Below are positions 1,345 to 21,009 of a stretch of 64,000 bases of DNA, piece by piece. The DNA is taken from contig NZ_VDMJ01000015.1 in assembly GCF_006335115.1 (NCBI RefSeq), positions 1-64,000 of the forward strand, given 5' to 3'. The position numbers were made by a program, and so were the translations under genes. Numbering within the stretch: the stretch's first letter is position 1; each line of letters begins with the position of its first letter. The stretch is from Streptomyces sp. NP160 (GTDB taxonomy: Bacteria; Actinomycetota; Actinomycetes; Actinomycetales; Quadrisphaeraceae). A model generated the notes under the pieces. It made no database searches and had not been told where the DNA came from. It saw nothing but the letters and a program-made list of their open reading frames with translations.

Positions 1345-2448
1345 ATGACCCTTGCCCAGAACACCCCGCCGCACCCACCCGCGGAACCGCCGCCTGTTGA
1401 GCCGCTGGGGGAGGAGAACGTCCTCGTCGTCGAGGACCAGTTCTTCGCCCTCGTGCCCGAGTGGGTCATCGAGGCCGACATCCCCGACGGCCCGTTCCGG
1501 CTGTACTGCCTGCTGCTCCGGTACGGCAACAGTTCCGGGGTCCGGATGCCCTCGCGGGGCACGCTTGCGCGGCGGCTCAGGCGCAGCACCGACGCTGTCG
1601 ACCGGGCCATGCGCGCCCTGGAGAAGACCGGGCTCGTCGTCGTCCAGCACCGCCAGCGCTGCGGCGCGACGCTGACGAACCAGTACCACCTGCGCACGCA
1701 GCGGCCGTCGGGTGCAGCTGGCGCTGACGAGGGCGGCTCTGGGGGAGGGGGCCGCACTTCTGCGGCCCCCTCCCCGTCGGCTTCACTGAGCCCGGCGCCG
1801 TCGGCGGCGACGGTGAGCGGGGCCCCGCTGGGGGAGGGCCGCGGATCTGCGGCCCCCCGCCGCACATCCGCGGAGGGGGCAGCCGCAGATCTGCGGCCCA
1901 ACCCAGAGATCTCTACCCAGAGAAGTTCTCCTCCCCCTCCGTCCCCCGCTCCGCCGGCCGCCGAGCACGCCCTGCGGGAGGAGGAGGTGGAGCTCCTGAC
2001 TCAGCTGGGCCTCGGCTCCGCTGTCGGCCTGGACCAGCTCGCCGTCCACTGCGCCGCGCTGCGCGCCGCACACGGCTGCGGCGCCACGCTGTGGAAGGGG
2101 CCGCATCTGCTCGCAGCCCTCCAGCTCGCCGTTGGCACCCGAGGCTGGCCGGCGCACCTTGCGACGGCGGCGCTGCTGAAGGTCGCCAAGGACCCGACGA
2201 CGCGCTCACCGATGCGGGTCGCCGAGGCGGGGCCGTGGTGGGACGAAGCCGCCGCCGACATGAGCGCCTCTCAACTCACCGAGGTCGACGTCGAGGCGCT
2301 CGAGGAGCGGTTGCAGGCCCTCGGCGGTGGACGAGTCGCGGTGCAGATGCAGGCCCGCGCGGAGCTGCAGCGTGAGGATCTGCCGCTGACCCGGACCACT
2401 GTGTTCCAGCGCGCCTGCGAGATCCTCGACCGACAGGCGGCGTCGTGA
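1345..2448 (+). CDS. Replication-type winged-helix protein
   Basis: A 367-residue protein. Residues about 30-120 form a winged helix of the kind found at the front of plasmid and phage replication proteins (PEWVIEADIPDGPFRLYCLL, then an HTH around PSRGTLARRLRRSTDAVDRA). A long Gly/Ser/Pro/Ala-rich linker follows at about 125-210, then a helical C-terminal domain ending in an Arg/Gln-rich stretch. ATG 1345 has GGAGG just upstream; the open frame reaching back to 982 only reads through the tRNA remnant. First gene rightwards of the att region, ahead of the mob genes, so a role in replication of the circular form or regulation of transfer is likely. No Rep catalytic motif is visible, so the function is inferred. 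Confidence 0.6.
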   Translation: MTLAQNTPPHPPAEPPPVEPLGEENVLVVEDQFFALVPEWVIEADIPDGPFRLYCLLLRYGNSSGVRMPSRGTLARRLRRSTDAVDRAMRALEKTGLVVVQHRQRCGATLTNQYHLRTQRPSGAAGADEGGSGGGGRTSAAPSPSASLSPAPSAATVSGAPLGEGRGSAAPRRTSAEGAAADLRPNPEISTQRSSPPPPSPAPPAAEHALREEEVELLTQLGLGSAVGLDQLAVHCAALRAAHGCGATLWKGPHLLAALQLAVGTRGWPAHLATAALLKVAKDPTTRSPMRVAEAGPWWDEAAADMSASQLTEVDVEALEERLQALGGGRVAVQMQARAELQREDLPLTRTTVFQRACEILDRQAAS

Positions 2449-2550: not shown

Positions 2551-2665
2551 GCCGTCGCTGCCGCGCCGGACTCCGCTCGCTGCGCATCGCAGGCCCCAGC
2601 GGGGGCGACGTCTACCGGGCGCGATCGTCGTCAGCGGCCGGCGCTGGGCCAGGCAGGTGGACGCG

Positions 2666-3121
2666 GTGAGCGCCGTCGGACAGCGAGCGGGTCGGGCACG
2701 TCGCTACGCCAAGGCCCGGGACCGCCAGGTCAAGTTCCGCGCCACCGCGGAGGAGCACGCGCTGCTGGTCGAGGCTGCCCGCTCGGCGGGGCTGACGCCG
2801 TCGGGGTACGCCGCGGAGGCGGCGCTGGCGGCGGCACGGGGTGTGCGGGCGCCGTCGCTGCTGCCGGTCCGTGAGGCGTTGGTGGAGCTGATGGCGGCCC
2901 GCACGCAGGTGCGCCGGTTCGCGGTGAACGTGAACCAAGCGGTCAAGGCACTGAACGCCACGGGGGAGGCGCCGGAGTGGTTGGCGACGGCAGTCGCCAT
3001 CACTGACCGTGCCGTGCTGCGCCTGGACGGCGCGGCCGCTGACCTCGTCCACGCTGCGCGATCTGCTCGGCGGTCCGCGGTCGCTCCTCCGCTAGCCCTG
3101 GCCGCGCGGGAGGAGTCATGA
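2666..3121 (+). CDS. mobC: MobC-like relaxosome accessory protein
   Basis: About 151 residues. The N-terminal third is a ribbon-helix-helix-like segment (QVKFRATAEEHALLVEAARS then GLTPSGYAAEAAL), and the helical C-terminal part contains VRRFAVNVNQAVKALNATGE, which is characteristic of MobC proteins. These proteins bind oriT and help the relaxase melt and nick it. GTG 2666 has AGGTGG at good distance; GTG 2657 would add three residues. Its stop overlaps the relaxase start (ATGA at 3118), so the two are translationally coupled. The family call is based on the RHH plus NVNQ-type signature. Confidence 0.8.
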   Translation: MSAVGQRAGRARRYAKARDRQVKFRATAEEHALLVEAARSAGLTPSGYAAEAALAAARGVRAPSLLPVREALVELMAARTQVRRFAVNVNQAVKALNATGEAPEWLATAVAITDRAVLRLDGAAADLVHAARSARRSAVAPPLALAAREES

Positions 3122-4149
3122 TCGGCAAGGTCGTTCGAGGTAACGACGTCGGGGGGTTGCTGCGCTACCTGTACGGGCCGGGTCGTGCGAACGAGCACAC
3201 CAACCCGCACGTGGTGGCTGCGTGGGACGACGGCGTCGTGGCGGACTGCGCTCCGGGCAGGAACCCGCGGTTGAAGCGGCTGACGGCGCTCTTAGAGCAG
3301 CCGCTGGCCGCGCTGGACCGCCGACCGTCGCCGTCGGTGTGGCACTGCCCGCTGCGTACGGCTCCGGGTGACAGGGAGCTGTCCGACGCCGAGTGGGCGG
3401 ATGTCGCGGCTGAGGTGCTGCATCAGACGGGCCTTGCGCCCCGTGGAGATGCTGGCGGGTGCCGATGGGTCGCCGTACGCCACGCCGACGACCACATCCA
3501 CCTGGCGGTCACGCTCGCCCGCCAGGACGGACGTCGGGCGCGCACCTCGCACGACTACGCGCGGCTTGGTGCAGCGTGCCGCACGGTGGAGGAGCGGTAC
3601 GGGCTGAAGTTGACGCCAGCTCGGGACCGGACCGCGCCCAAGCGCCCAACGCGTGCGGAGGCCGAACGCGCGCAGCGTGAGGGGCGAGCGGAGACGCCTC
3701 GCCAGCAGTTGCGTCGCCAGGTTCGCCAGGCCGCGCTATCAGTCACCGACCTTCGTAGCTTCGTCGAGGCCCTGGAGAGCGCTCAAGTGCAGGTCCGCCT
3801 CCGCTACAGCGAGCTTGACCCGACACTGGTGACCGGCTACTCAGTGGCGGACATCTCACATCGGACGACCGCCGGCGAACTCGTCTGGTACGGCGGAGGC
3901 AAGCTCGCGCCACAGCTCTCCCTACCGAAGCTCCAGCGCATCTGGACGAACGGGGCGGCGACCAGGACACGGCGAACCGCGCTTGGAACAGGTGCGACTC
4001 AGCGGCCCCGTACGCCCAAGAAACAGCAGCGGGTGCTCAGGGCTGCTGCCTCGATCGTCGCACATGTGGAGGACGGCAATGTTGGCTCGGCGATCGCAGG
4101 CCTCGCTGTTCAGGTCGTGAAGGCTAGCCGTCCCCCTCGACGTCCGTAG
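3118..4149 (+). CDS. Relaxase/mobilization nuclease
   Basis: A 343-residue relaxase that should cleave oriT and stay covalently attached to the 5' end of the transferred strand. The N-terminus has RYLYGPGR with Tyr17 and Tyr19 as candidate nucleophiles, and residues about 123-130 carry the histidine triad HADDHIHL that binds the metal. After the nuclease domain comes an Arg/Lys-rich region (about 170-205) and a poorly conserved tail. Organisation and coupling to MobC fit the MOBP-like relaxases of actinobacterial conjugative elements. It is short: many relaxases carry a helicase or primase domain, absent here. The matching coupling protein and T4SS lie downstream on the opposite strand. Confidence 0.85.
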   Translation: MIGKVVRGNDVGGLLRYLYGPGRANEHTNPHVVAAWDDGVVADCAPGRNPRLKRLTALLEQPLAALDRRPSPSVWHCPLRTAPGDRELSDAEWADVAAEVLHQTGLAPRGDAGGCRWVAVRHADDHIHLAVTLARQDGRRARTSHDYARLGAACRTVEERYGLKLTPARDRTAPKRPTRAEAERAQREGRAETPRQQLRRQVRQAALSVTDLRSFVEALESAQVQVRLRYSELDPTLVTGYSVADISHRTTAGELVWYGGGKLAPQLSLPKLQRIWTNGAATRTRRTALGTGATQRPRTPKKQQRVLRAAASIVAHVEDGNVGSAIAGLAVQVVKASRPPRRP

Positions 4150-7942: not shown

Positions 7943-8401
7943 CTAATTCGGGCGCAGATTGCCAACGCGGTCGAGGGGCGGTATGTGTGTTTCCTCGTGA
8001 CGGGTCGATGAGCAACTTGAGAAAGGACCTCGGGAACTGAGAAGTACGACGAGTTGAGGATCAAGAAACTGATGCAGCCAAGTGGACATGCCCAATGCTG
8101 GATCGTAACGCAGCGCCTTCCACGAGCGCCAGAGCGCTTCAAAGCGCACCACAGCCTCGCGGTGCTCTCGCCACCGGGAGCACCAGCGAAACTCACCGCC
8201 GAGAGGCCGGGGAAAGGTGGCGCAGAAATAGTTCAGAACCCAGCTGTCAAGGTCGGAGTAGTCATCCTCGCCGTTATGCGCGTTGTTCGAAGGGGGGCCG
8301 AGACCGATGTCGGCGAGTTCCGCTTCGTCGGCACGAAGCTCTAACCGCGCCAGTCGAGCGTCGACCTCGGCCTGCCACCGCTCACTGTTCGCGCCGGTCA
8401 T
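7943..8401 (-). CDS. DUF4913 family protein
   Basis: A 152-residue protein with the conserved core of DUF4913: FPRPLGGEFRWCSRWREH, then RFEALWRSWKALRYDP and STWLHQFLDPQLVVLLSSRG. This family is common in conjugative and integrative elements of actinobacteria, next to coupling-protein genes; its function is unknown. The start ATG overlaps the stop of the VirD4-like gene (ATGA at 8398-8401), so it is the last gene of the transfer operon. The C-terminal end is somewhat richer in A/T, like the neighbouring TPR-PIN gene with which it converges, 28 bp apart. Confidence 0.75.
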   Translation of the reverse strand: MTGANSERWQAEVDARLARLELRADEAELADIGLGPPSNNAHNGEDDYSDLDSWVLNYFCATFPRPLGGEFRWCSRWREHREAVVRFEALWRSWKALRYDPALGMSTWLHQFLDPQLVVLLSSRGPFSSCSSTRHEETHIPPLDRVGNLRPN

Positions 8402-10143
8402 CGGTCGCCTCGTCGAGCCGGGGCCTCGTAATAGGGCTGCAGACGTACCTGGGCCGCCCGCAGGCCGGTGGCCAGCACCAGCGCCGTCCCCTTCGGCATC
8501 GCCCGCAGATGCTCAGGAGGAAGTAGCCGCTGGCGGCGCAGAGACGTCGTCACCGATCGTGATGCGCGCTGGCGACCGTCGCCGCTGCCGTCGGCGTAGG
8601 ACCGCACCGTGACGTCGTGGTCGCCTACCAGGCGACTGACATCCTCGGCGAACCTGGCGTCGTCGATCCCCGCGCCGACCAGCTTCACCGTGGCCGCTGA
8701 CCAGAGGGAATCCATCCCGGTTTCGCCCCAAACGCGCACTCCCTGCCGGTAGGACTGCAGCACCGTCAGCGGCACGACGCCGCGCGACCCGAGGTGGGAG
8801 TACAGATCGGGTAGGTCGGGGATCTTGCAGATGTTCGCCGCCTCGTCGAGGACGACGACGAGTGGGGGGTCCAGGCGGGCGCCGGAGGAGCGCTCCGCTG
8901 CGCGGATGCCGTCGTGCATCAGTCGGTCCACCAGCGCTGCCACGAGCGGCGCGGCGGTCCCGGCGCCGTTCTTGGACAGTAAATGCAGCGTCTGCCGGGA
9001 CGTGACGAACGCAGCGGTGTTGAACTCCTCGCACCCCGTGGCGCCGCTGGTCCGCGCTGGCACCAACCACCGCATGATGACCGGGTCTCGCAGCGCCGAG
9101 GCAGCGGTGCGGGCGGTCTCGTAGACGCCGTCGCGGGTTTCGACCGCCCCGTTCTGCCGACCGACGACCGCGGCAGCTGCCGCGTGGTGGCCGTGCGCAC
9201 GCAAGAGGTTCGCCGCCGTCGGGACCGCCGAATCGGTGAGCCACTCGTAGACCTCCGGCAGCGAGCGCTCCGAGAGAGCGGCAGCCAGCAGGAGGTTGGC
9301 GAGCAGGTCGTGGGCGGCGCTGGACCAGAAGTCGCGTCCGTCCTTTTCGCCGCGGATCTCGGTGATGAAGTGCCCTGCCAGCCGGGTCGCCTCCTCCACC
9401 GTGGTGACCCCGCGCAGCGGGTCCCACCACATCGCCTGCGACTGCCCGGTGACTCCCTGGGGGTCGAAGACCCACACCCGCTCACCGGTGGAGCCGGCAC
9501 GCTCGGCCCAGGTGGCCTCCCACAGATCCGGCTTGATCGAGGTCGCCAGCACCGGGCCGGGGGCATTGCGCACGATCGGCACCGTCAGCGTCGTCGTCTC
9601 GCCGGCCCGGGGCGCCATCACCGCCAACAGCACGTCCTCCCACGAGGCCCGTAGCCTGGGGCCGCGCGGCATCAAGACTCCCAGCGCGAGGCCGACGTCC
9701 TCGGCAGCGACGTCACGGTCCGGTCGCTGTGCCAGCGACCGGCGCAGGCGCCTAGCCCGCTCCTTCGCGGGAGCCGGGGTGAGCGGGGCCACCTCGTGCG
9801 CCTGCGCGAGCCCTTCGACCGGCGCTAGCACCCGCCGCCCCAGGACCGTCAGCGCGCACCCCGCGGTCGTCACGACGGCGAGAAGCAGGAAGACCAGCAC
9901 GACGACAGCCCAAGTCGGCGTCCCCGGCCACACAGCCTCGACGCCGTCGCCGACGAGGAGCCGCACGAAGTCGACGCCAAACGGCGGCGAGACCCACCCG
10001 TTCCCTGCAAGCCAGGACGCCGTCGTCCCGGCCAGCCGCACCAACCACGCGAGCCCGACGACGCCCCACACCACACCCAGCAGCGTCATCGGCAGCCCGA
10101 ACCCGGGCGTCGCAGCACCACGGGGCTCCAGCACCCGGCCCAT
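8398..10143 (-). CDS. VirD4/TraD-type conjugative coupling ATPase with aberrant Walker A
   Basis: A 581-residue coupling protein that brings the relaxase-DNA complex to the secretion channel. Two N-terminal membrane segments (about 18-40 and 76-100) precede the ATPase domain. The Walker A region at 177-184 reads APRAGETT: Glu182 stands where Lys is expected. Walker B is LVVVLDEAANI at about 428-438, and the TraM/TraD recognition part follows (MDSLWSAATVKLVGAGIDD). ATG 10143 is preferred over TTG 10146. The gene sits 7 bp after the VirB4 stop and overlaps DUF4913. Family assignment is secure from the overall layout; whether it still hydrolyses ATP is open. Confidence 0.85.
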   Translation of the reverse strand: MGRVLEPRGAATPGFGLPMTLLGVVWGVVGLAWLVRLAGTTASWLAGNGWVSPPFGVDFVRLLVGDGVEAVWPGTPTWAVVVLVFLLLAVVTTAGCALTVLGRRVLAPVEGLAQAHEVAPLTPAPAKERARRLRRSLAQRPDRDVAAEDVGLALGVLMPRGPRLRASWEDVLLAVMAPRAGETTTLTVPIVRNAPGPVLATSIKPDLWEATWAERAGSTGERVWVFDPQGVTGQSQAMWWDPLRGVTTVEEATRLAGHFITEIRGEKDGRDFWSSAAHDLLANLLLAAALSERSLPEVYEWLTDSAVPTAANLLRAHGHHAAAAAVVGRQNGAVETRDGVYETARTAASALRDPVIMRWLVPARTSGATGCEEFNTAAFVTSRQTLHLLSKNGAGTAAPLVAALVDRLMHDGIRAAERSSGARLDPPLVVVLDEAANICKIPDLPDLYSHLGSRGVVPLTVLQSYRQGVRVWGETGMDSLWSAATVKLVGAGIDDARFAEDVSRLVGDHDVTVRSYADGSGDGRQRASRSVTTSLRRQRLLPPEHLRAMPKGTALVLATGLRAAQVRLQPYYEAPARRGDR

Positions 10144-10150
10144 CAACGCC

Positions 10151-11725
10151 TCACTCGAAGAGCGCCGGATCGACGACCGCCGTCGGCCGCCCCGTGGGAC
10201 GGACGGCGCTGTCGGTGTCGTACAGCCGGGCCTCGTCGCCGACGAACTCCAGCTCCACCGGGATGCCGACCCGCTGCCCGGTCTTGATGAGGTACTTCCC
10301 CCGGCCGGGGTGACGGGCGCCGGCCTGCCAGGACTCCGGCGCGGACCAGGACGCGACCATCGTCCGCTCCTTGTCCGACAGCGGCACCACCGCCGAGACC
10401 GCGTCGAGCTCCCGCGGCGGCAGCCCCGCCAGGACGGTGACGGCGTTGCGCTCGACGAAGCCGCGGGCCTTGGCGCGGTCTTCCTCGGTCGGCAGCGCCG
10501 AGAGGTCGTCCAGGGAGTGCGTCGCCATGGCGTGCGCGACGTCTCGGCCCCGGTAGACCCGGGTGAGGGCGTCGGCGTGGTCGACCAGCCCGGGCGCTCC
10601 GCGTAGGGCTCGCCACAGCTCGTCCATGACGGCGAAGTACTTGCGCCGCGGTGCGAGGCCAGCCTCGGCGAGGGCGGTGGAGGCGTCGATGGTGGCGAAG
10701 CCGTAGGACCAGGTCGACAGCATCGCCGCGGCCACCAGGGTGTCCCCGGAGGCAGCCACGGCGGAGATGTCGACGCTGACCGCAGGCGCCTCCAGGTCGA
10801 TCGGCTGCGTGGTCGGTCCGTCGAAGACGCCCTTCAGGGAGCCCTCGCACAGCAGCGCCAACGTCTGGCGCAGCTCCTTCGTCTCGGCGCGGTAGGCGTC
10901 GTGGTCGTCGAGCTCGGAGGCGGCCACGAGCCGGTCCGGGCCGTCCCGGACCACCTTGAGCACCTCCGGGATGGTCGGAGACATCTCCCGGCGCTGCGCG
11001 GCGGTCATCCCCGCGGGGAGGCGGCCTCGGGGCTTGCGGTCGGTGAGCAGGTCGACGGCCGCGCCCAGGACCACCTCTTCGCCGTTGGTCATCCCGCCGT
11101 GGCGGCGGACCAGGGAGCAGAGCGCGAGGGTCGCCGACAGGCGCCGTCCGCGGACCTCCAGGCGCAGCCGGTCGGCGGCCTCCCCGCTGAGCTGGCTGAG
11201 CGCCGAGCCCAGGGGCCCGGCGTCCAGGGGGTTGATGCGGTCCAGGCCGCGTCCGACGCGGATGACCTGTCCGCCGGCGGCCTCCACGACGGCGGAGTAG
11301 TCCGGCTTCAGGTCGCCCAGGAACAGCGGCCGCACGCCGAAGGCCATGAGCCCGCGGGCCAGGCGCTTCAGCGCGGCGGACTTGCCGGTGCCGGGCTGGC
11401 CGAGCAGGGTCAGCCCGCGGTTGGTGACCAGGCCAGCCTCGAGCCAGGCGAAGGGGTCCAGGCAGACGACCTCGCCCCACATCATGTGGCGCCCGAAGGG
11501 CACCCCGACCGACGGCGCCCCGGAGCCGGCGACGAAGGGGAACAGGCCGCAGGCCTGCACGGTGGTGGCCTGGTACTCCGGGGCGACCCCGGCGTGGGCG
11601 AGGCGCCCGGCGCCGCGGTCGCGCCATCCCCAGGCGGGGGCGACGACGTCGGGCAGCTCCGGCCGTGCTGCCGTGCGGGCCGCCCGTGTCGTCGTCCTGC
11701 TCTCTCGACGGAGGGTGCGGCTCAC
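10151..11725 (-). CDS. VirB4-like conjugation ATPase
   Basis: A 524-residue ATPase powering pilus or channel assembly at the membrane. Walker A is GQPGTGKS at about 109-116, Walker B is KYFAVMDELWR at about 362-372, and the family-typical GDLKPDY and a C-terminal arginine-rich region are present. GTG 11725 overlaps the stop of the SCO6880 gene (GTGA), which sets the start; the longer frames upstream would run into that gene. It is shorter than proteobacterial VirB4 because the N-terminal domain is supplied by the separate SCO6880-family protein encoded just before it, the usual arrangement in actinobacterial T4SS. Confidence 0.85.
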   Translation of the reverse strand: MSRTLRRESRTTTRAARTAARPELPDVVAPAWGWRDRGAGRLAHAGVAPEYQATTVQACGLFPFVAGSGAPSVGVPFGRHMMWGEVVCLDPFAWLEAGLVTNRGLTLLGQPGTGKSAALKRLARGLMAFGVRPLFLGDLKPDYSAVVEAAGGQVIRVGRGLDRINPLDAGPLGSALSQLSGEAADRLRLEVRGRRLSATLALCSLVRRHGGMTNGEEVVLGAAVDLLTDRKPRGRLPAGMTAAQRREMSPTIPEVLKVVRDGPDRLVAASELDDHDAYRAETKELRQTLALLCEGSLKGVFDGPTTQPIDLEAPAVSVDISAVAASGDTLVAAAMLSTWSYGFATIDASTALAEAGLAPRRKYFAVMDELWRALRGAPGLVDHADALTRVYRGRDVAHAMATHSLDDLSALPTEEDRAKARGFVERNAVTVLAGLPPRELDAVSAVVPLSDKERTMVASWSAPESWQAGARHPGRGKYLIKTGQRVGIPVELEFVGDEARLYDTDSAVRPTGRPTAVVDPALFE

Positions 11726-13278
11726 GCGAGCACCCGCCCGGCGACGTGCGCGGGGTGCAGCCCCGCGGGCAGCGTGGTGGCGAAGCCGAGGGCCTGGGAG
11801 CCCCACAGCCGGCGCAGCCGGACCTTGGACTGGTCGGCGCGAGCCTCGGTGTCGGCGATCGCGGCTGCCAGCGCCGTCGGGTCATCCCCGTCCAGCACGG
11901 TGACGGTGGCGTACAGGCTCATCAGCACGACCCCGGCGCCGAGCGCCTCCTCGCGGGCGGCGGCCATGGCCTGCTCGCGGTCGGCCGCGTCACGGGCGGT
12001 GGCGTCGCGGCCCTGGCTGCGGCGATAGGCGTCCCGGAAGGCGGCGGCGTTGACCTGGCTCTCCAGCACCCGGGCCGCGGCGCCTGGCGGCAGCGGGCGG
12101 AAGAGCAACGTCACGCGGCGCGGGAACCGGCCCGGGGAGAGCAGGCGGGTGAGGACGTTGGCGGTGACCTGCTGGCGGGGTGCCTCGTGCCACGCCCAGG
12201 ACACCGAGGTGCCGGAGTCGTGGCGGTAGGTGCCCCACCCGTCCTCGGCGGCCACCGGCCCGGCCTCTCCCCAGGCCAGCAGCGGGCAGGTTCCCGCGCC
12301 GGAAGAGGAGGGGAGAGCGTCGTCGAGCAGGGCGTTGACATCGCCGCGGCTGGCCGGGTCGAACGCGGTCCGCACGGTGCCGGCGAGCTCGGCGGCGCTG
12401 GCGCGTCCGAGGACGGTGACGCCGCACTGCCCGAGCGCGGCCTCCATCCCGGTCAGGGCGCGGGCGACCTCGGCGGTGCGGTCGGCGAGGTCGGGCAGGC
12501 GCTCGTCGGCGCGCGAGGGGTCGAAGGTGATGGAGACGCGGGTGTCGACGTCGGCGGCTGCGGCGGGGGAGCGCAGGATCAGCTCGCGCAGCAGGGCCAC
12601 GACGTCGGCGGGTGCCTCGGGGTGCAGACGGGAGGCGACGTTGCGGGCCAACGTCGAGCCCGGCTCGGGCGCGGTGTCCACGGTGACCGCGACCCAGGCC
12701 ACCAGCGGGTCGAAGCCGCGCGAGGCCAGCCAGGAGTGCCACGAAGCGACCCAGCCGTCGGCGGCGTCGCTGTCGACCAGCCATGTCGAGGACGACGCGC
12801 AGCGCAGCGTGGCGGTGAGCATCCCCGAGCGCTGGTCGTGCACCAGGCCGAACGCGCTTCCGCGCCCGTCGGCCACGGACAGCAGACGCGTAGTGGCCAG
12901 GGCGCCAGGCAGCTGCCAAGCGGAGGGGTGCTCGACGACAACCCCGGCGCGCAGGCTCGTGTAGCCGCGCATCCGGGCCCAGGCGAACTGCCCGCGCCGC
13001 AGCACGACGTCCGTCAGCGGGGCCCCGTCGAAGCGCGCCACCGTCAGCGCCGCCACGAGTGCGCACGGCAGCGCGACGACGAGCCCGGCGCGCAGAGACG
13101 TGCTCAGCGCCAGCAGGGGAAAGACGATGCAGGCCAGGACGACGGCGGTGGCCACGGCGCCGAGGCCGAACAGGCCGATGCCGCGGGTGCGGCGCCAGCC
13201 GCCGTAGGTGCGTGGTGGCTGCGCCGACATCGAGGCCATTGAGGACGTCGTGTGCGGGCGTGTGGTGGTGGTGCTCAT
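11722..13278 (-). CDS. SCO6880-family conjugation protein
   Basis: A 518-residue membrane protein of the SCO6880 family, the partner of the VirB4-like ATPase in actinobacterial conjugation systems. Two adjacent membrane segments lie at about 33-80 (GLFGLGAVATAVVLACIVFP and RAGLVVALPCALVAALTVAR); the rest is cytoplasmic. The segment QFAWARMRGYTSLRAGVVVE is typical of the family. The start ATG overlaps the stop of the VirB6-like gene and its stop overlaps the VirB4-like start, so all three are translationally coupled. Confidence 0.85.
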   Translation of the reverse strand: MSTTTTRPHTTSSMASMSAQPPRTYGGWRRTRGIGLFGLGAVATAVVLACIVFPLLALSTSLRAGLVVALPCALVAALTVARFDGAPLTDVVLRRGQFAWARMRGYTSLRAGVVVEHPSAWQLPGALATTRLLSVADGRGSAFGLVHDQRSGMLTATLRCASSSTWLVDSDAADGWVASWHSWLASRGFDPLVAWVAVTVDTAPEPGSTLARNVASRLHPEAPADVVALLRELILRSPAAAADVDTRVSITFDPSRADERLPDLADRTAEVARALTGMEAALGQCGVTVLGRASAAELAGTVRTAFDPASRGDVNALLDDALPSSSGAGTCPLLAWGEAGPVAAEDGWGTYRHDSGTSVSWAWHEAPRQQVTANVLTRLLSPGRFPRRVTLLFRPLPPGAAARVLESQVNAAAFRDAYRRSQGRDATARDAADREQAMAAAREEALGAGVVLMSLYATVTVLDGDDPTALAAAIADTEARADQSKVRLRRLWGSQALGFATTLPAGLHPAHVAGRVLA

Positions 13279-14552
13279 CGGTTCTCTCCTGCGGAGGTGT
13301 TGGTCATGGCGCCGCCGGCGGTGCGGCTGGCGGCGACGGTGGTGTCGTAGGCGCCCTTGGCGGCGGCGATGCCTGCACCGGCGACGCCCCCTGCTGCACC
13401 GGCTCCTGCGGCAACGCCGGCCGAGGAGCCGCTCGCCGCCGTGGACGCAGCCCCAGCGCTGGCACCCGAGGCCGTCGAGGACGCGGCGGTCGTGGAGGCG
13501 GCACCGGTGGCCGCGCCGCTCGCTCCGCCCCCGGTGGCCGCGCTGCCCGGGGCTGCGTAGACCGACGCCGCTGCCGGACCCAGGTCGGACTTCATCTGCG
13601 TGGCGTGGGCACCCGCGTCACCACCGGAACCAGAGCCCGCGCCCCGCAGCGCCGAGATGCCCTGCGCGCCGGCGGCGGCGAGCGACAGCGTCGTCGACAG
13701 GCCGCGGCTCGGGCCGCCGCTGTCGCCGGTGGCCCACCTGAAGAACCGCATGAGCACCGGCAGCGCCACGACGCTCATCACGATCATCGACAGACCGACG
13801 ATGACGGTGCGCGGGTCGCCACCTGCCTGTAACGAGCCCTCTGGCCCGGCGGTCATCCGCAGCGCGACGGCGTACACGAGCGCGGCGACCGGCTTGTAGG
13901 CGATCAGCGCCAGCATCCAGGCGAGCACCTTGCCCAGCCACGGGCGTCCGTAGCCGGTGACGTTGCCGGCGGCTGCCAGCACCAGCAGCCCGGCCAGGAC
14001 GACGACGGCGCCCTCGCGGAACATCATCAGCACCGCCTGGATGAGCCCGGCGAGCATGACCAGCAGCCCGATGACGATGGCGGCGCCAGCGGAGTTGATG
14101 CCCCGCAGCCCCGCCAGGGCCACGAGGCGCTCGACGACCTGCCCGCTGGCGGCTCGGTCGAGCACCCAGGAGGAGAAGTCGTCCCCGGCGCGCAGCGCCA
14201 GGGCGGAGCCGGTGATGCCGACGGCGGCCCACAGCGCAAGGGTCACGAGCCCACGGCCGATGTCGAGCAGCGGATCCAGGCGATGGGTGATCGCCATCCT
14301 CATGCCCTGCCACGTCACGCCTGCGGCGGCGATGACGAGGGAGAGCCACCAGACGTCGTCGCGAATCGCCAGGGCAGGGGAGTTGGCGACGTCGATGGCG
14401 GGTACCTCGACCCACCAGCCGATGGTGGTCTTGATGACCCAGGTGGCGCCCTCGCGCATGGCGTCGGCGAAGGAGTTGCCGAGGCTCGCGGTGGCCGCGT
14501 CCGCCACCGCGCCCACGACGCAGCTGGCGGGATCGAGGACGTCGCACGGCAT
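13275..14552 (-). CDS. VirB6/TrbL-like polytopic conjugation protein
   Basis: A 425-residue inner-membrane protein that should form part of the transfer channel. An N-terminal periplasmic-type segment is followed by at least six hydrophobic helices between about 65 and 270 (for example VWWLSLVIAAAGVTWQGMRM, AAIVIGLLVMLAGLIQAVLM, AVVVLAGLLVLAAAGNVTGY). The C-terminal 130 residues are a low-complexity Ala/Gly/Ser/Thr tail. The start overlaps the stop of the preceding VirB8-like gene by one base. Assignment rests on topology, tail and operon position; sequence identity to Gram-negative VirB6 is not claimed. Confidence 0.75.
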   Translation of the reverse strand: MPCDVLDPASCVVGAVADAATASLGNSFADAMREGATWVIKTTIGWWVEVPAIDVANSPALAIRDDVWWLSLVIAAAGVTWQGMRMAITHRLDPLLDIGRGLVTLALWAAVGITGSALALRAGDDFSSWVLDRAASGQVVERLVALAGLRGINSAGAAIVIGLLVMLAGLIQAVLMMFREGAVVVLAGLLVLAAAGNVTGYGRPWLGKVLAWMLALIAYKPVAALVYAVALRMTAGPEGSLQAGGDPRTVIVGLSMIVMSVVALPVLMRFFRWATGDSGGPSRGLSTTLSLAAAGAQGISALRGAGSGSGGDAGAHATQMKSDLGPAAASVYAAPGSAATGGGASGAATGAASTTAASSTASGASAGAASTAASGSSAGVAAGAGAAGGVAGAGIAAAKGAYDTTVAASRTAGGAMTNTSAGENR

Positions 14553-15394
14553 CAGTCGTCACCGCCTGTGGAGGGCTGGGCGGGGTCGAAGCGCGTGATG
14601 TCCGTCGGGACGTCGGGCAGCTGGGCCACGACGCTGTTCCAGGTGCCGGCGCTGGGGGCGAGCAGGCGCCAGTCCCCGTCCTGCCGGGTCATGACGACGT
14701 CGACGCTGAACGTCTGCGGCGCGCCGTCGGCGTCCACGGCGGTCAGCACCAGCTGCACGTGCCGGTTGCTCCGGGGCAGCTGCTCGACGCGGTAGCCGAG
14801 CAGGGTCGCGTCTCCGGCGGGCAGCGGCTGGCCGTCGCGCAGCCCGGCGGTGACGCGTGCCTCGGCGTAGTCCTTCTCGACGGCGACGCTGAGCGCCTGG
14901 CGCGCCGGGCCGGTGACTTGCTGCTCGAGTGCCGGGCGGAAGGTCGCCGACCCGGCCGACGGGCCAGCGGCGTAGGAGATGTGGACGGCCGCGAGGGCAG
15001 CGCCGAGGTCGGTATCGGCGTACCCGATGTCGAGCGGACCGCCCTGGCCCGTCGGGCCTGCCGTCGCCGAGACGGGCAGCGGGGTGCCCTGGCGGTCGAC
15101 CCAGGTGAGGTCGCTCGCCGGGGAGGGCGCCGGAGACTGGCTCGTCCCGTCTGGAGCTGCGCTCTGCTCGGCGGCCGGAGGAGCGCCGCCTGCGCTCTCG
15201 CCGTTGCGCAGGACGGTCCAGGCCGACAGGGCCGTGGCCGGGAAGACCGCGGCGATGACCGCGAGGACCGCGATCTGGCGCCGGCGGCGCCGGTTCTGCA
15301 GCCGTGCCGGGGAGTAGGCGCGCCCATTGAAGATGGTGCTCGGCTGGTGGGTGCCAGGGGTGCGGCGTGGTGGCGGCACCAGCGGCGTGGGCAC
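14552..15394 (-). CDS. VirB8-like bitopic conjugation protein
   Basis: A 280-residue protein: basic cytoplasmic N-terminus (about 1-40), one membrane helix at about 41-62 (IAVLAVIAAVFPATALSAWT), a Ser/Pro/Ala linker, and an extracytoplasmic domain from about 95 with the mixed alpha/beta pattern of VirB8/TcpC-type NTF2-like domains. It starts at GTG 15394, directly adjacent to the stop of the pilin-like gene, and ends on the start of the VirB6-like gene. It probably acts as an assembly factor of the channel. The function is inferred from topology and position. Confidence 0.65.
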   Translation of the reverse strand: MPTPLVPPPRRTPGTHQPSTIFNGRAYSPARLQNRRRRRQIAVLAVIAAVFPATALSAWTVLRNGESAGGAPPAAEQSAAPDGTSQSPAPSPASDLTWVDRQGTPLPVSATAGPTGQGGPLDIGYADTDLGAALAAVHISYAAGPSAGSATFRPALEQQVTGPARQALSVAVEKDYAEARVTAGLRDGQPLPAGDATLLGYRVEQLPRSNRHVQLVLTAVDADGAPQTFSVDVVMTRQDGDWRLLAPSAGTWNSVVAQLPDVPTDITRFDPAQPSTGGDD

Positions 15395-15664
15395 TCAGAC
15401 CACCGCCCCGACGATGGCGGCGGAAAAGGCGATGACGGTCAGGCCGCCGAGCACCCAGGGGATGCCCGCGGCGCCGTCGGCGGCGACGGCGGAGCGGTTG
15501 CGTCGGCCGATCATCATCATGATTCCGCAGATCAGCAGGCCGGCGACGCCGGCGACGAGGCCGCCCCATTTGAGCCAGCCGAGCAGGGTGTTCACCGCGT
15601 CGCCGAGTCCTGGTGGGGCGACGGGCGCGGGGTTGGGGATGGCGGCGGTCAGCAGCCAGCTCAT
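15395..15664 (-). CDS. Small two-helix membrane protein, pilin-like
   Basis: An 89-residue protein with two hydrophobic helices (GGLVAGVAGLLICGIMMMIG and PWVLGGLTVIAFSAAIVGAV) joined by a short basic loop GRRNRS, the layout of VirB2/TrbC pilins and of the small SCO6882-type proteins at this place in actinobacterial transfer operons. ATG 15664 overlaps the stop of the MinD-like gene. No clear signal-peptidase site is visible, so processing into a pilin is unproven. Confidence 0.65.
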   Translation of the reverse strand: MSWLLTAAIPNPAPVAPPGLGDAVNTLLGWLKWGGLVAGVAGLLICGIMMMIGRRNRSAVAADGAAGIPWVLGGLTVIAFSAAIVGAVV

Positions 15665-16242
15665 GGGGTGGCTCCCTTCTGCTGGCGTCGCTGAGCTCTG
15701 CTCGTGGCGACGGGGGCGGGTTCGACGGCGGTCACGAGCCGCGTGACGGCCTTGGCGTAGGCCGGTGAGGGGCTGCGCTGGTCGCTGGCCTCGTAGCGCC
15801 ACCGTTGGACGTGGGGGACCTCGGTGATGGAGGCGACGAAGACGCTGAGGGCGCGCACCCGAGCTCGGGCCCCGAGGGGCTCCTGCCCGCGGCCGTCGCG
15901 CACAAGGGCGAGGTGTATGGCGGGCGCTGACGTGACGGTGGTCAGGCGCCTGACGGCGTGGGTCGCGGCGATGACGCCGTCCACGGTTGCAGCGGCGACG
16001 ACGACGCAGTGGGCGGTGCCGTGAACCGCGACGGGCGTGAGGTCGACCTCGCGGTAGGTCTCGGGCAGGTGGGCGGCCAGGGTGCTGGCGCCGCTGCCGC
16101 CGTGGGCGCTGACCAGGACGACATCGGTCGTCGGGGCCTTCGCCACGGGCGGCGCAGGGGTGCTGCTGGGGCCGTCGGTGGGCGTGGGGATCGGTGGCGC
16201 CGGGGCGTCTGGAGCCGCGGTCGTCATCACTGTGGTTGTCAC
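15661..16242 (-). CDS. MinD/ParA-like protein with degenerate P-loop
   Basis: A 193-residue protein and first gene of the transfer operon. After a Pro/Thr-rich N-terminus it has the strand and loop DVVLVSAHGGSGASTLAAHL (about 40-59), which resembles the deviant Walker A of MinD/ParA proteins (KGGxGKS) but lacks both lysines. The following part alternates strands and helices as in a truncated P-loop fold. It may be a non-hydrolysing adaptor. I believe it corresponds to the DUF6668-type proteins seen in such operons, but that label is from memory. GTG 16242 with GAGGTG upstream is preferred; ATG 16227 is the alternative. Confidence 0.6.
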   Translation of the reverse strand: MTTTVMTTAAPDAPAPPIPTPTDGPSSTPAPPVAKAPTTDVVLVSAHGGSGASTLAAHLPETYREVDLTPVAVHGTAHCVVVAAATVDGVIAATHAVRRLTTVTSAPAIHLALVRDGRGQEPLGARARVRALSVFVASITEVPHVQRWRYEASDQRSPSPAYAKAVTRLVTAVEPAPVATSRAQRRQQKGATP

Positions 16243-16407: not shown

Positions 16408-16794
16408 ATGACCACCACCCCCACCGCCGCAATGACCGCCGACCTGACCGAGGGCCCAAGCGCGGAAGCAGCGCTCGAGTCCGCCCGGCACCTGCTCACC
16501 GCGCTGACCCAGCACGCCCGCAACGAGGGCGAGCAGGCGCGCGCCCAAATGGCTCTCGCCCACCTCGACGACGTCTGGCCCCTGCGTGCCCCCGTCGACG
16601 CCGCCGACGTCGACGGCATCGACGCCCGCGGCGCCGTCCTGCTCGACGAGGCGATGAGCGCACTCGTGAGCGTCGTCGCCACGGCCGAGGATGCCCAGGC
16701 GCGCGCCCGGGCCCTGCGGGCGCTGGCACTGCTCACCTCGAACCTCGACATGCCCGGCGACGTGCCCGCTGACGTGCCTGCCGGGCAGCCGTGA
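16408..16794 (+). CDS. Hypothetical acidic helical protein
   Basis: Not recognised. 128 residues, acidic and alanine-rich, predicted mostly helical, without membrane segments. ATG 16408 has AAAGACGAGG upstream. Its stop overlaps the start of the next gene (GTGA at 16791-16794), so the two are coupled. It faces the transfer operon across a divergent promoter and is likely part of the transfer module. Confidence 0.6.
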   Translation: MTTTPTAAMTADLTEGPSAEAALESARHLLTALTQHARNEGEQARAQMALAHLDDVWPLRAPVDAADVDGIDARGAVLLDEAMSALVSVVATAEDAQARARALRALALLTSNLDMPGDVPADVPAGQP

Positions 16795-18074
16795 ACGTCG
16801 CCGACACCCTCGGCGACCTCACCGGCCAGCTCGCACAGCTCTACGTCCAGCGCGGCCCGACCGTGGCGAACGACCTCGACGTCGACGCCGCCCTGCACGC
16901 CCGCTCCGCCGTCATCGCGCTGACCCGCGAGCTGCTCTTCTGGGGCACCAGGCTTCGCCAGGGCACCCGCCCCACGCTGGTCGACGCCGAGACCAGGCCC
17001 GCCCACGGCCTGGCCTGGCACCTCACCCGCCACCCCGTCCCGGAAGCGACGCGGTCACCGATGGACGTGGCCCGGCTCGCCGCACCCGGCTCGGCCGCGG
17101 AGCGCTGGGAGCGCGTGGCCACTCAGGCGACCCTCGTGCAGACGCAGTGGGAGGCCAGCCCTAGCAAGCCGATGGGCCCAGCGGTGCGGACCGTCGTCGC
17201 CGACGCCACCGTCCTGGCCCTCAGCGTCAGCCACCTCGACCAGCGCCTGGCGACGACGGCTGCAGCCAGCGGGCGCCCCGACGTCGCCGAGGCCCTCACC
17301 TCCCAGGCGGTGCACGGCCTGCGCACCAGCGCCGAGGCCACGCTGCGACACCTGGCCCGCGGCGACCTGCCGGCCTGGCGCGCCGACATCGCTCTCCCCG
17401 CACGCCGCCTCGACGTGCTGCCGATGCGAAGCCCCGCCGACCTCCCGAGGGGCCTCGCCCGTCTGATGTCGCTGCTGGACGCGGGCACCCACGTCAGCCC
17501 CGCCCACCTGCACCTGGTGCTGCGCGGGCAGGAGCGGATCGCGTCGGCGCTCGGCAAGGAGTGCGCCACGCTGTGGCGAGCCACCGCGGACCCGGCCATC
17601 TTCGACGCCGGACGACGGCTCACCGAGCTCCGCCTCAGCCTGCAGGGCGCGGCCCCGGCGCTGCGCAAGGACATCGGCAGCATCGAGCCGGCCGATCCCC
17701 GTGCGCTGCTGCAGGTCAACGAGTGCCTGCGGGCCCTCGGCTTCTCCCTGCCGGAGGCGCGGCGCGGTCTGCCGCAGCGCGTCGACCTCGCCGTCGACCA
17801 GACCTCCACGCTGCTCTACAGCGTCGAAGCCGTCGGGTCCTGCGCGCGCAGCCAGGTGAACGGACGTCGCTGGCTGACCGCTGAGTGGAACCGCGACGAG
17901 ACCGCACAGACCTGGCACCGGGCTGACCGGCACGACCACTCCCGCATCGGCCCGCTCCTCATCCTCGGGGAGACGGCGCTCGACCTCCTCACCCGCCCCG
18001 CGGCCCTCATGACGCACGCGGCGCAGCAGCCCGCGATGGCCCAGACGGCCAGCCGCGGGCACGTCATGGCCTGA
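16791..18074 (+). CDS. Hypothetical helical protein of the transfer region
   Basis: Not recognised. 427 residues, almost entirely alanine/leucine/arginine-rich helices, no membrane segment, no nucleotide-binding motif. A mid-protein segment with many His, Leu and Arg residues (about 195-260) and a basic patch near 360-380 could contact nucleic acid. The GTG start overlaps the stop of the preceding gene. Context suggests a transfer or element-maintenance role; nothing more specific can be said. Confidence 0.55.
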   Translation: MNVADTLGDLTGQLAQLYVQRGPTVANDLDVDAALHARSAVIALTRELLFWGTRLRQGTRPTLVDAETRPAHGLAWHLTRHPVPEATRSPMDVARLAAPGSAAERWERVATQATLVQTQWEASPSKPMGPAVRTVVADATVLALSVSHLDQRLATTAAASGRPDVAEALTSQAVHGLRTSAEATLRHLARGDLPAWRADIALPARRLDVLPMRSPADLPRGLARLMSLLDAGTHVSPAHLHLVLRGQERIASALGKECATLWRATADPAIFDAGRRLTELRLSLQGAAPALRKDIGSIEPADPRALLQVNECLRALGFSLPEARRGLPQRVDLAVDQTSTLLYSVEAVGSCARSQVNGRRWLTAEWNRDETAQTWHRADRHDHSRIGPLLILGETALDLLTRPAALMTHAAQQPAMAQTASRGHVMA

Positions 18075-18133: not shown

Positions 18134-19513
18134 ATGCCCAAGCACCGTCAGCCCACCCCCGCCGCTCGCCGCGCAAGGCCCGCCGCCGTGACGATCGGAG
18201 CGTTGACGCTCCTGTGCAGCGCTACCGGCGTCGCCTTGGCCGCTACGAACCCGGCAGCCGAGGAGACGCCGATGCCGGCCAGCACCACCACCACCACCAC
18301 CGCCGCGCCCTCGACCCTGGAGGTCGCGCCGCAGCCGACCGCGATGACGCCTGTCGGTTCCGAGACCACAGCACCTAGCGAGCCGACCGCCGCCCAGCCC
18401 CCGCAGGGCGACGGCGAGGCGTGGCTATCGGGAGCCTCGGGCGACGGCGCGGCCGACGGGGCCCTGGGGGAGTGGCGTGGTGACCCCGTCGACATCGTCG
18501 GCACCTGGGCCGACGTTGGTGACAACCAGACCCAGTTGTACTCCATCGCCCCTGGCGGCGAGGTCGCCGACTTCGACGGCGCCATCGACATCGCTCCCGG
18601 CGGGCTACTCGAGGGCGACACCTGGGCTGCGGCCGCCGACGGTGCTTACGACGACCGCTGGCGAGAGTCGCTGACCCGCATGGCAGAGCTTCGCCAGGGC
18701 CGCGGAACGACGTACGTGCGCCCTTTCCACGAGTTCAACCTCGGTGGCTGGAACTGGTCGGTCAGCCCCGGCGACGCCGAGGACTTCAAGGCCGCCTGGG
18801 CCCGCTACCGGGCGATCCAGCAGGAGGCCTTCCCCGACGCCCAGCTCGTCTACGGCGTCAACGTCACCAGCTCGGGCACTGACCTGGACTGGCGCACCAC
18901 CTGGCCCGGCAGCGACCAGGCCGATGTCCTCGGCGTGGACACCTACAACGGTTGGCCCACCATCACCTCAGCCGACGAGTTCGACGCTCAGCTCGACGCC
19001 CGTGGCGACGACGGCATCCCCGTCGGGCTGCAGGCCTACAGCGAGCAGGCTGAGCAGTGGGGGGTGCCGCTGGCGGTGCCGGAGTGGTCCGGCCGCGCCG
19101 GGATGGGCGACGAGCCCGCCTACGTGGAGGGGATGGTCGACTGGTTCGACGCCAACGCCGGCGACGGGCCGGGACAGCTGGCCTACGAGATCCTGTTCAA
19201 CGCTCCGCAGGACGACGGCAACTTCCAGCTCTTCGCCGACGACACGAAGATGCCCGACTCAGCCCAGGCGTACGTAGACGCCGTCGCTTCGACCGAGGAT
19301 GACCGCACAGCCGACGACCCCTCCTCGGCGAAAGAGGCAGCCGCGGCGCAGGACGAGGGGCCGCTGCCGGCGCCCTCGTCAACCTCGACGACCACTGCGG
19401 CCACCGAGCCGGGTCAGCCGGTGGGAGAAAAGACCACTCCTGCCTCGCAGGCGGACGTCGATGAGCTCGTGGCTCGGCTGGACGCGCTGCTGGACCGCCT
19501 CGAGCAGAGCTGA
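18134..19513 (+). CDS. Secreted GH26-like glycoside hydrolase
   Basis: A 459-residue exported protein. Residues 1-36 form a signal peptide (basic start, TIGALTLLCSATGVALA), then a Thr/Pro/Ala-rich stretch to about 95. Residues 100-385 resemble GH26 beta-mannanase-type domains: RPFHEFNLGGWNWSV with Glu200 as the likely acid/base, VDTYNGWP, and VPEWSG with Glu317 as the likely nucleophile. The tail from about 395 is low-complexity and ends in a short helix (VDELVARLDALLDRLEQS) that may form a coiled coil. It follows the two transfer-region genes and precedes a terminator, so it appears to belong to the conjugation module, perhaps to remodel extracellular polysaccharide during mating. The substrate is unknown. 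Confidence 0.7.
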   Translation: MPKHRQPTPAARRARPAAVTIGALTLLCSATGVALAATNPAAEETPMPASTTTTTTAAPSTLEVAPQPTAMTPVGSETTAPSEPTAAQPPQGDGEAWLSGASGDGAADGALGEWRGDPVDIVGTWADVGDNQTQLYSIAPGGEVADFDGAIDIAPGGLLEGDTWAAAADGAYDDRWRESLTRMAELRQGRGTTYVRPFHEFNLGGWNWSVSPGDAEDFKAAWARYRAIQQEAFPDAQLVYGVNVTSSGTDLDWRTTWPGSDQADVLGVDTYNGWPTITSADEFDAQLDARGDDGIPVGLQAYSEQAEQWGVPLAVPEWSGRAGMGDEPAYVEGMVDWFDANAGDGPGQLAYEILFNAPQDDGNFQLFADDTKMPDSAQAYVDAVASTEDDRTADDPSSAKEAAAAQDEGPLPAPSSTSTTTAATEPGQPVGEKTTPASQADVDELVARLDALLDRLEQS

Positions 19514-19534: not shown

Positions 19535-19870
19535 GTGTCAGTGGCCGGGGCGAGCATCGCGCCAGTGGCTGGAGGGATGGCGAAGAAGGGGGCACCGCTA
19601 CCAGGGTGGCTCGTCGCTGCCAACACGGAGCGACGGCTCGCGGCAGAGGAGGCGATGCGCCAGCGGCGCCCGCCGGGCAACCCGTTCGTGTGGGTCATCG
19701 GCTCGGAGGCCGACTATTCAGGGATCGTCATCGACCGGCGTCGCGTCGGTGCCGGTTGGCAGATCTACGTGGCCTACACCTCGCTATGGCACGAGCTGAT
19801 GCAGCAGTGGCTCGACGCCGAGCAGCTGGTGCCCTGCGAGAGCCCACAGTCGAGTGCGCCGCCATCGTGA
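19535..19870 (+). CDS. Small hypothetical protein
   Basis: Not recognised. Up to 111 residues; ATG 19577 would give 97 (MAKKGAPLPGWLVAANTE...). The core VWVIGSEADYSGIVIDRRRV and GWQIYVAYTSLWHELMQQWL looks like a small beta-sheet protein of SH3/KOW type, with several tryptophans. It lies 21 bp after the GH26-like gene and is the last gene before the strong hairpin at 19879. The start is uncertain because GTG 19535 has no clear ribosome site and ATG 19577 has GGAGGG only two bases away. Confidence 0.55.
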   Translation: MSVAGASIAPVAGGMAKKGAPLPGWLVAANTERRLAAEEAMRQRRPPGNPFVWVIGSEADYSGIVIDRRRVGAGWQIYVAYTSLWHELMQQWLDAEQLVPCESPQSSAPPS

Positions 19871-19878
19871 TGACGCCC

Positions 19879-19919
19879 GTAGAAGGCGCCGATCCCCGCT
19901 GGGGATCGGCGCCTTCTAC
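19879..19919 (+). terminator. Perfect 19-bp hairpin terminator
   Basis: GTAGAAGGCGCCGATCCCC is followed, after a GCT loop, by its exact reverse complement: a 19-bp stem with no mismatch. No T-run follows, so it would be an L-shaped or bidirectional terminator typical of high-GC actinobacteria. It lies eight bases after the last plus-strand gene of the transfer module. Confidence 0.8.
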
Positions 19920-20344
19920 GCGGTCGCCGGTTGGTGCAGCGGCTCGCCGCGCGACGCCCGGGGCGCGTCCCGGCGGCGGTTGAGGCGGCTCACCGACGGT
20001 GGTCCTTCACCGAAGACCGGCCACCGAGCGGGAGTGGAGCGAGCAGTCGGGTTGACCCTGGAGCGGCACGTTCCCGCGTGGCGGCGCCCGTCACGCGGGC
20101 GGCCCCGGGCGCTTCGCGCTTTTCGTACGACGCACTCAGGTGAGACGGACCACCGAACAGGGCAAATGCGACTCGGGCACGTGGTGTGACGAGGACCGGC
20201 CCGAAGACGCTGGCACGTCCGCTCAGCGGTCGTCATCTGAGACAGCTGCAAAAAGGACCTCGCTGGTGTGTCCCTGCCACGCCATAGACCGCCAGCGCGT
20301 CGTTGTCTATGACGATCTCTCTCGGCCACCCGCAGGAGCTCACG
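19920..20344. other. Non-coding stretch before the lipoprotein gene
   Basis: About 425 bp after the terminator. Open frames here have no ribosome site and no recognisable content. I see nothing beyond the expected promoter of the lipoprotein gene, for which CAGGAG stands before ATG 20345. Confidence 0.4.
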
Positions 20345-20992: not shown

Positions 20993-21009
20993 TACTGCAG
21001 CCGTAGATC
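20993..21009. repeat. IS701 terminal inverted repeat, transposase 3' side
   Basis: TACTGCAGCCGTAGATC, the exact reverse complement of 22543-22559. It borders the CTAG target copy at 20989-20992 and ends just before the transposase stop region at 21008. Confidence 0.9.

Follow-up and report, generated by a model that had tools for sequence, protein, structure and literature searches.

An exported, putative GH26-like glycosidase is encoded within a conjugative module of about 19 kb in the window, by which we mean the whole stretch of 64,000 nucleotides, from a soil bacterium, analysed here. Its relatives outside such modules often stand among exopolysaccharide (EPS) genes, and in Kineococcus a PslG-related protein occupies the corresponding slot of the transfer module. 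We lean towards the reading that an EPS glycosidase was recruited to conjugation, where it would thin surface polysaccharide for mating. The element spans from a helix-turn-helix gene (1345) to a hairpin ending at 19924, and homology between elements runs from about 1084 to about 20240; direct repeats at the element ends amounted to short, weak matches. A T4SS operon runs leftwards from 16230, and a divergent unit comprising o16408, o16791, the GH26-like gene and o19541 runs rightwards from 16408. Gene models came from a simple codon-usage script trained on 17 ORFs of the window, including the GH26-like gene and several T4SS genes. The genes of the element are as follows.

1345..2448, +, helix-turn-helix protein at the left side of the element
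2657..3121, +, NikA-like mobilisation protein
3118..4149, +, relaxase
7943..8401, -, DUF4913 protein
8398..10143, -, type IV coupling protein (T4CP)
10151..11725, -, VirB4-like ATPase (partial NCBIfam match, E 2.7e-10, under the model cut-off)
11722..13239, -, SCO6880-family T4SS protein
13275..14552, -, membrane protein, VirB6-like by position only (no Pfam or NCBIfam match)
14552..15394, -, membrane-anchored protein, VirB8-like by position only (no Pfam match)
15395..15664, -, small TrbC/VirB2-like protein (Pfam E 0.039, under cut-off)
15661..16230, -, first gene of the T4SS operon, 189 aa, no assigned function
16408..16794, +, o16408, first in the divergent unit, 128 aa, no assigned function
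16791..18074, +, o16791, 427 aa, no assigned function
18134..19513, +, exported GH26-like glycosidase (putative), 459 aa (ORF, profile search, AlphaFold2 model)
19541..19870, +, o19541, 109 aa, no assigned function, behind the GH26-like gene in six of seven modules
19875..19924, +, terminator-like hairpin closing the divergent unit, no T run (-46.9 kcal/mol, z -9.8)

A sequence-only reading of this DNA had placed the gene in a transfer region lacking a peptidoglycan hydrolase. The T4CP, VirB4-like, SCO6880-family and relaxase genes around it bear out the setting, with the TrbC-like match falling below the Pfam cut-off, and six-frame scans with four Pfam families (NlpC/P60, SLT, M23 and CHAP) found none of these domains in the module or elsewhere on the window's 263-kb contig. 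The same reading had put the gene at the end of the region, before a terminator; a hairpin does lie downstream, but o19541 stands in between. The promoter and terminator scan found no promoter and left this GC-rich hairpin unflagged because it has no T run. For the VirB4-like gene, an ORF at 10146-11885 was rejected as being in the wrong frame in favor of 10151-11725. Homologues of o16791 stand before a glycosidase gene in both Quadrisphaera and Kineococcus, and the predicted structure of o16791 (pLDDT 39.5) was too low in confidence for use. Between the relaxase and DUF4913 genes, the stretch of lowest GC content (59-62%) encodes a TPR-PIN protein of 1227 aa (4231-7914, +). Related modules have other genes at this place (L119, L120, L121 and L164), which makes it a possible hotspot for cargo genes, perhaps ones with defence functions. 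A DDE transposase gene (21008-22450, -) lies just outside the right element end.

Fold, catalytic residues and tail of the glycosidase

From its N-terminus, the protein consists of an export signal joined by a low-complexity linker to a barrel, after which another linker leads to a terminal helix. The main parts map to the window as follows.

18134..18241, +, N-terminal export signal, residues 1-36 (read by eye; common to six of seven module copies)
18416..19288, +, (beta/alpha)8 catalytic domain, residues 95-385, within a barrel modelled at 95-392 (model, dN/dS)
18731..18733, +, Glu200, acid/base candidate, after strand 4 (alignments, DSSP of the model)
19082..19084, +, Glu317, nucleophile candidate, at the end of strand 7 (alignments, DSSP of the model)
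19448..19507, +, C-terminal amphipathic helix, residues 439-458 (model, tail comparison)

The codon-usage caller accepts the ORF at 18134-19513, which was itself among its training ORFs, and purifying selection acts on the barrel, whose dN/dS was 0.12-0.20 in all six comparisons. Export had been proposed earlier and agrees with the Arg-rich start, the hydrophobic stretch that follows it and a possible cleavage after ALA, all read by eye.

Assignment to GH26 stands on profile and model comparisons. The window protein alone scored 14.4 bits against Pfam Glyco_hydro_26 (PF02156; cut-off 20.2); four of five relatives scanned scored 24.2-29.2, a LysM fusion gave no match, and neither did two plasmid relatives (L126 and L155). 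A family profile of 17 sequences found solved GH26 chains at E=3.5e-11, the single sequence only at 0.0053. In the AlphaFold2 model, ten-residue means of pLDDT were 89-99 across the barrel and 91-95 across the terminal helix. The best structural match of this model was the lichenase CtLic26A (2bv9, 2vi0; Z 25.4 over 262 residues at 3.0 A), whose seven entries, one of them a fusion, gave Z 24.2-25.4. Entries 8 to 29 (Z 18.5-21.9) were further xylanases and mannanases, many of them GH26 by title or profile, led by the xylanase AlXyn26A (21.9), the mannanases reaching about 21 at most. Since GH5, GH39 and GH51 entries begin at Z 18.4, only the lichenases stand clear. On the model, then, the window protein has the GH26 fold, as the sequence-only reading had claimed.

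Both catalytic Glu residues named in that reading are in place: neither E200 nor E317 varies in an alignment of 17 sequences or in one of 32. The larger alignment omits L071, which carries a stop, and neither alignment includes the viral-contig relatives L138 and L139, in which the HE pair is missing. In CtLic26A, the residue aligned with E200 is the Glu within LRPLHEAN, the acid/base of that enzyme. The two proteins thus share the barrel fold and a Glu in the aligned HE motif, although they are only 15% identical, CtLic26A is a lichenase by its entry titles and we know of no link between it and conjugation. From sequence and model together, the window protein is predicted to be a secreted endoglycosidase of GH26 fold.

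Copies in SCO6880-type modules differ from their relatives in the tail. All seven such copies have 74-96 residues past the barrel ending in the helix, which is found in none of the other 33 of the 40 sequences compared. Among those 33, 29 end within 10 residues past the barrel, 31 residues follow it in L046 and L064 (one and the same gene), and two domains of the G000:C123 locus have different tails. Over 24 codons the helix shows a dN/dS of 0-0.36, far more constrained than the linkers (0.54-0.90). Its amphipathicity is modest evidence alone, as an equal moment occurred in 57 of 2000 shuffled tails. The helix may serve to keep the enzyme at the donor surface or to oligomerise it.

Link to conjugative modules and relatives among EPS genes

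The window protein was matched in 11 of 59 related genomes, including all five of the same genus. Searches for SCO6880 (E up to 1e-10) gave seven places in six Quadrisphaera genomes and 14 outside the genus. A survey of related conjugative elements, which the sequence-only reading had proposed, found a GH26-like gene within about 10 kb of SCO6880 in all seven Quadrisphaera modules, and two genomes of the set (G001 and G005) have neither an SCO6880 place nor a copy of this type, though other relatives are present. Outside the genus, a GH26-like gene is present only in G065:C34, where it shares a contig with the T4SS and lies about 16 kb from SCO6880; this survey covered 11 of the 14 outside places plus four new ones from a search of 13 genomes (G032, G052 and G027, the weakest, were left out), and the G042:C352 and G042:C508 modules are cut by contig ends. 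Four of the seven Quadrisphaera modules (the window, G002:C18, G003:C5 and G004:C11) have the gene in the divergent unit. In G000:C102 and G003:C3 it is found on the far side of the relaxase, and in G003:C8 it follows the T4CP and DUF4913 genes. In G000:C102 and G003:C3, a Tad/Flp-pilus-like cluster, recognized by eye from TadE-like proteins and a TadA-like ATPase, lies 5′ of the T4SS operon (L052 1465-11224 and L118 10049-19760).

The glycosidase and the T4SS appear to have separate histories. Relative to the window, the SCO6880 proteins of the other six modules are 94, 95, 95, 51, 50 and 37% identical, and the GH26 cores of the same modules, in the same order, 89, 91, 83, 87, 90 and 86% (r=0.05). 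As GH26 similarity is independent of T4SS similarity, the gene moves between modules. The downstream gene o19541 tracks it, at 83-91% identity in five modules, and was not found in G003:C8. In a tree, the seven module copies and two domains from G000:C123 form one clade (support 100/99, bootstrap not settled), with the third G000:C123 domain, which carries LysM by Pfam, placed elsewhere. G000:C123 is a second type of T4SS, with VirB4-like, TrbL, SLT plus NlpC/P60, T4CP and relaxase genes as well as a GH6 gene. Because the clade spans two T4SS types, one GH26 lineage serves unlike conjugation systems. In this second module, one protein (L036 10728-14669) joins a GH26-like domain to PT repeats and three LysM domains and adjoins a two-domain GH26-like protein, and nearly the same locus is present in G001:C14 (L044).

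Outside T4SS modules, we read the contexts of seven loci by eye and found an EPS-gene setting at five: L037 (three copies), L046, L057, L058 and L068, in Quadrisphaera, Pseudokineococcus, Blastococcus, Geodermatophilus and Kineococcus. Their neighbours are glycosyltransferase-like, sugar-nucleotide and multi-pass membrane genes, and the family is often found in such settings in Kineosporiaceae and Geodermatophilaceae. No EPS genes were seen at L038 (Quadrisphaera) or L074 (Corallococcus). Pfam scans of ten neighbours identified GT2 in L037, GT1 in L046 and Wzz in L057, with Wzz just below cut-off in L068; six of the ten had no match, including the sole L058 neighbour run, so that L058 is assigned by eye only. 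The EPS-locus proteins share E200 and E317 with the window protein and have core identities of 43-44% (the three Quadrisphaera EPS copies) and up to 52% (Blastococcus). Unlike them, the window copy is not inside an EPS biosynthesis cluster but in a T4SS module, and most of the EPS-locus proteins end within 10 residues past the barrel. Pfam also identified extra domains in two relatives, CWB2 repeats in one Quadrisphaera paralogue and Malectin in one from Pseudokineococcus. Three plasmid records matched the GH26-like protein and none matched o16791 or o19541. A phage origin was rejected, as no match was found in 50,697 phage records. Eight viral-contig loci (L133-L140) encode GH26-like relatives at 31-47% identity.

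In Kineococcus, the same divergent slot can hold a different enzyme. After the o16791 homologue, G025:C99 and G042:C372 each encode a secreted protein of a family that we call P0002. These slot proteins have no Pfam match, and P0002 alone also lacks a PDB or NCBIfam match; the family profile, however, matches PslG at E=5.4e-5 and the GH39 entry 5jvk at 4.5e-5, its closest solved relatives. The nine-member alignment has invariant VEG-NE and TE-G motifs, as expected of clan GH-A. On this profile evidence the family is probably related to PslG, a glycosyl hydrolase of an EPS cluster in Pseudomonas aeruginosa, as reported (PMC9075953). Other P0002 members adjoin genes that look glycosyltransferase-like, and both families occur side by side on pKRAD01 and in G065:C34. 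PslG belongs to another GH family than the window protein (GH39) and is, to our knowledge, not on a conjugative element. On pKRAD01 one P0002 member is fused to GH6 beside a GH26-like gene. This plasmid, from Kineococcus radiotolerans, also has an SLT-NlpC/P60 gene and an FtsK-like ATPase gene near the GH26-like and PslG-like/GH6 genes (L126 8849-13555).

These distributions bear on whether the enzyme is simply cargo that benefits the host, through EPS remodelling, dispersal or polysaccharide use, and merely rides on the element. Relatives are encoded at eight other places in the host genome, and two of the seven modules have the gene on the far side of the relaxase, at a distance from the T4SS operon, as cargo might be. 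Such an explanation nevertheless seems rather unlikely to us, given the presence of the gene in every one of the seven modules, the helix that is confined to them, the exchange between different T4SS backbones and the PslG-related protein that the same divergent unit holds in Kineococcus.

The divergent slot and peptidoglycan hydrolases

What usually flanks the T4SS operon at its 5′ end can be seen in nine plasmids that carry SCO6880 modules (H1-H8 and H10, from 448 records). Eight of them have an annotated peptidoglycan hydrolase gene there, which is divergent in six of the nine (H1 across the record start, H2, H6, H7, H8 and H10) and codirectional in two (H3 and H4); H5 has no peptidoglycan hydrolase at that place. 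Within the order, we compared near-type modules, defined by an SCO6880 at least 50% identical to that of the window (n=9: the window, five from Quadrisphaera, G025, G042 and G066), with 13 modules at 33-39%. An EPS-type glycosidase is present in eight of the nine near-type modules and a peptidoglycan hydrolase in none, or in one if an M23 domain about 8 kb past the T4SS genes of G025:C99, behind an RHS gene, is counted; G066 was checked with representative hydrolase queries only and G042 is cut by contig ends. All 13 far-type modules have a hydrolase (two G067 modules by BLAST only) and three have a glycosidase (G003:C8, G042:C286 and G065:C34). Fisher p-values for near versus far type were 2e-6 for the hydrolase and 0.0075 for the glycosidase, and are descriptive only because the modules are related to each other. 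In Kineococcus, a large RHS-repeat protein adjoins the T4SS module (L107 16121-19999 with L141 121-5037).

The sequence-only reading had the GH26-like enzyme stand instead of a peptidoglycan hydrolase. As strict replacement, this did not survive: in both G003:C8 and G000:C123 a peptidoglycan hydrolase is encoded alongside GH26 copies, which rules the model out. The window protein resembles the VirB1-like peptidoglycan hydrolases of Gram-positive T4SS in being encoded with the T4SS, in its predicted export (by eye) and in its divergent slot, and differs from them in having no SLT, muramidase, CHAP, NlpC/P60 or M23 catalytic domain. One could still suppose that the protein is a true VirB1 substitute whose GH26 domain now acts on a glycan of the cell wall, either peptidoglycan or a wall polymer, to make way for the channel, considering that the window-type gene is in the divergent unit where other SCO6880 modules hold a hydrolase and that near-type modules are so poor in hydrolases when far-type modules all have one. 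With relatives among EPS genes, two modules carrying both enzyme types, and no clan GH-A enzyme known to us to act on peptidoglycan, we consider this improbable.

Surface polysaccharide and mating

The kinship with enzymes often found beside EPS genes, together with a place usual for cell-wall hydrolases, suggests a clearing of surface slime for mating. We infer that the gene was recruited from EPS clusters into transfer modules and that the enzyme would be expressed together with the module and then exported. It may cut surface exopolysaccharide of the donor, the recipient or both, which would bring their walls close enough for the T4SS to work. Of the substrates proposed in the sequence-only reading, capsule, widened here to EPS, gains from the EPS-gene neighbours and from the PslG-related protein in the Kineococcus slot. 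Mannan finds no such support, since the nearest solved structure is a lichenase and lichenase and beta-1,3-xylanase entries precede most mannanases in structure and profile matches, although fold does not fix substrate. Overall, the observation behind that reading holds, and its interpretation holds for fold, export and module link, is unsupported for mannan and fails as strict replacement.

Capsules lower conjugation, and phages answer capsules with depolymerases. By analogy, the window enzyme may likewise be a mobile element's own means against host surface polysaccharide, although, unlike phage capsule depolymerases, it is not on a virion and phage records hold no match to it. In Klebsiella, capsule loss is reported to have raised conjugation 8-fold on average in four strains (PMC8259999), and greater capsule volume to lower it, by volume and not by type (PMC10918111); conjugative systems there reportedly show no serotype bias (PMC8259999, PMC10918111). 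The effect by volume and the lack of serotype bias argue against a role in recipient choice. Several points stand against the EPS reading: transfer of ICEBs1 reportedly benefits from biofilm matrix (PMC9578413); Kineococcus G066:C40, with an SCO6880 71% identical to that of the window and o16791 present, has neither glycosidase; a peptidoglycan hydrolase accompanies the glycosidase in two modules; only four of seven Quadrisphaera modules share the slot; and two loci of relatives lack EPS genes. That the domain is a surface lectin or adhesin which binds EPS and holds mating partners, with cutting secondary, can be largely dismissed, for although inactive VirB1 homologues are proposed as adhesins in a recent review (PMC12857230), both catalytic Glu are invariant in the 32 aligned sequences and the core is under strong constraint.

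In the open-access literature we found no description of EPS-cutting enzymes as parts of conjugation modules. The main text of a 2025 T4SS review contains no word starting with "glycos", "capsul" or "exopolysaccharide", and its section on peptidoglycan-degrading enzymes names only peptidoglycan-cutting domains (PMC12857230). As a wider and more tentative proposal, for which we would claim less than even confidence, conjugative elements of the Kineosporiaceae may have depolymerases of their own: swappable secreted EPS glycosidases (GH26-like, PslG-like and GH6) drawn from EPS clusters, at the VirB1 position or complementing it, which may set the recipient range by surface polysaccharide as a conjugative counterpart of phage tail depolymerases, with the C-terminal helix perhaps docking or oligomerising the enzyme. 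If an EPS glycosidase has indeed been recruited to mating, the range open to these elements would be shaped by surface polysaccharide.
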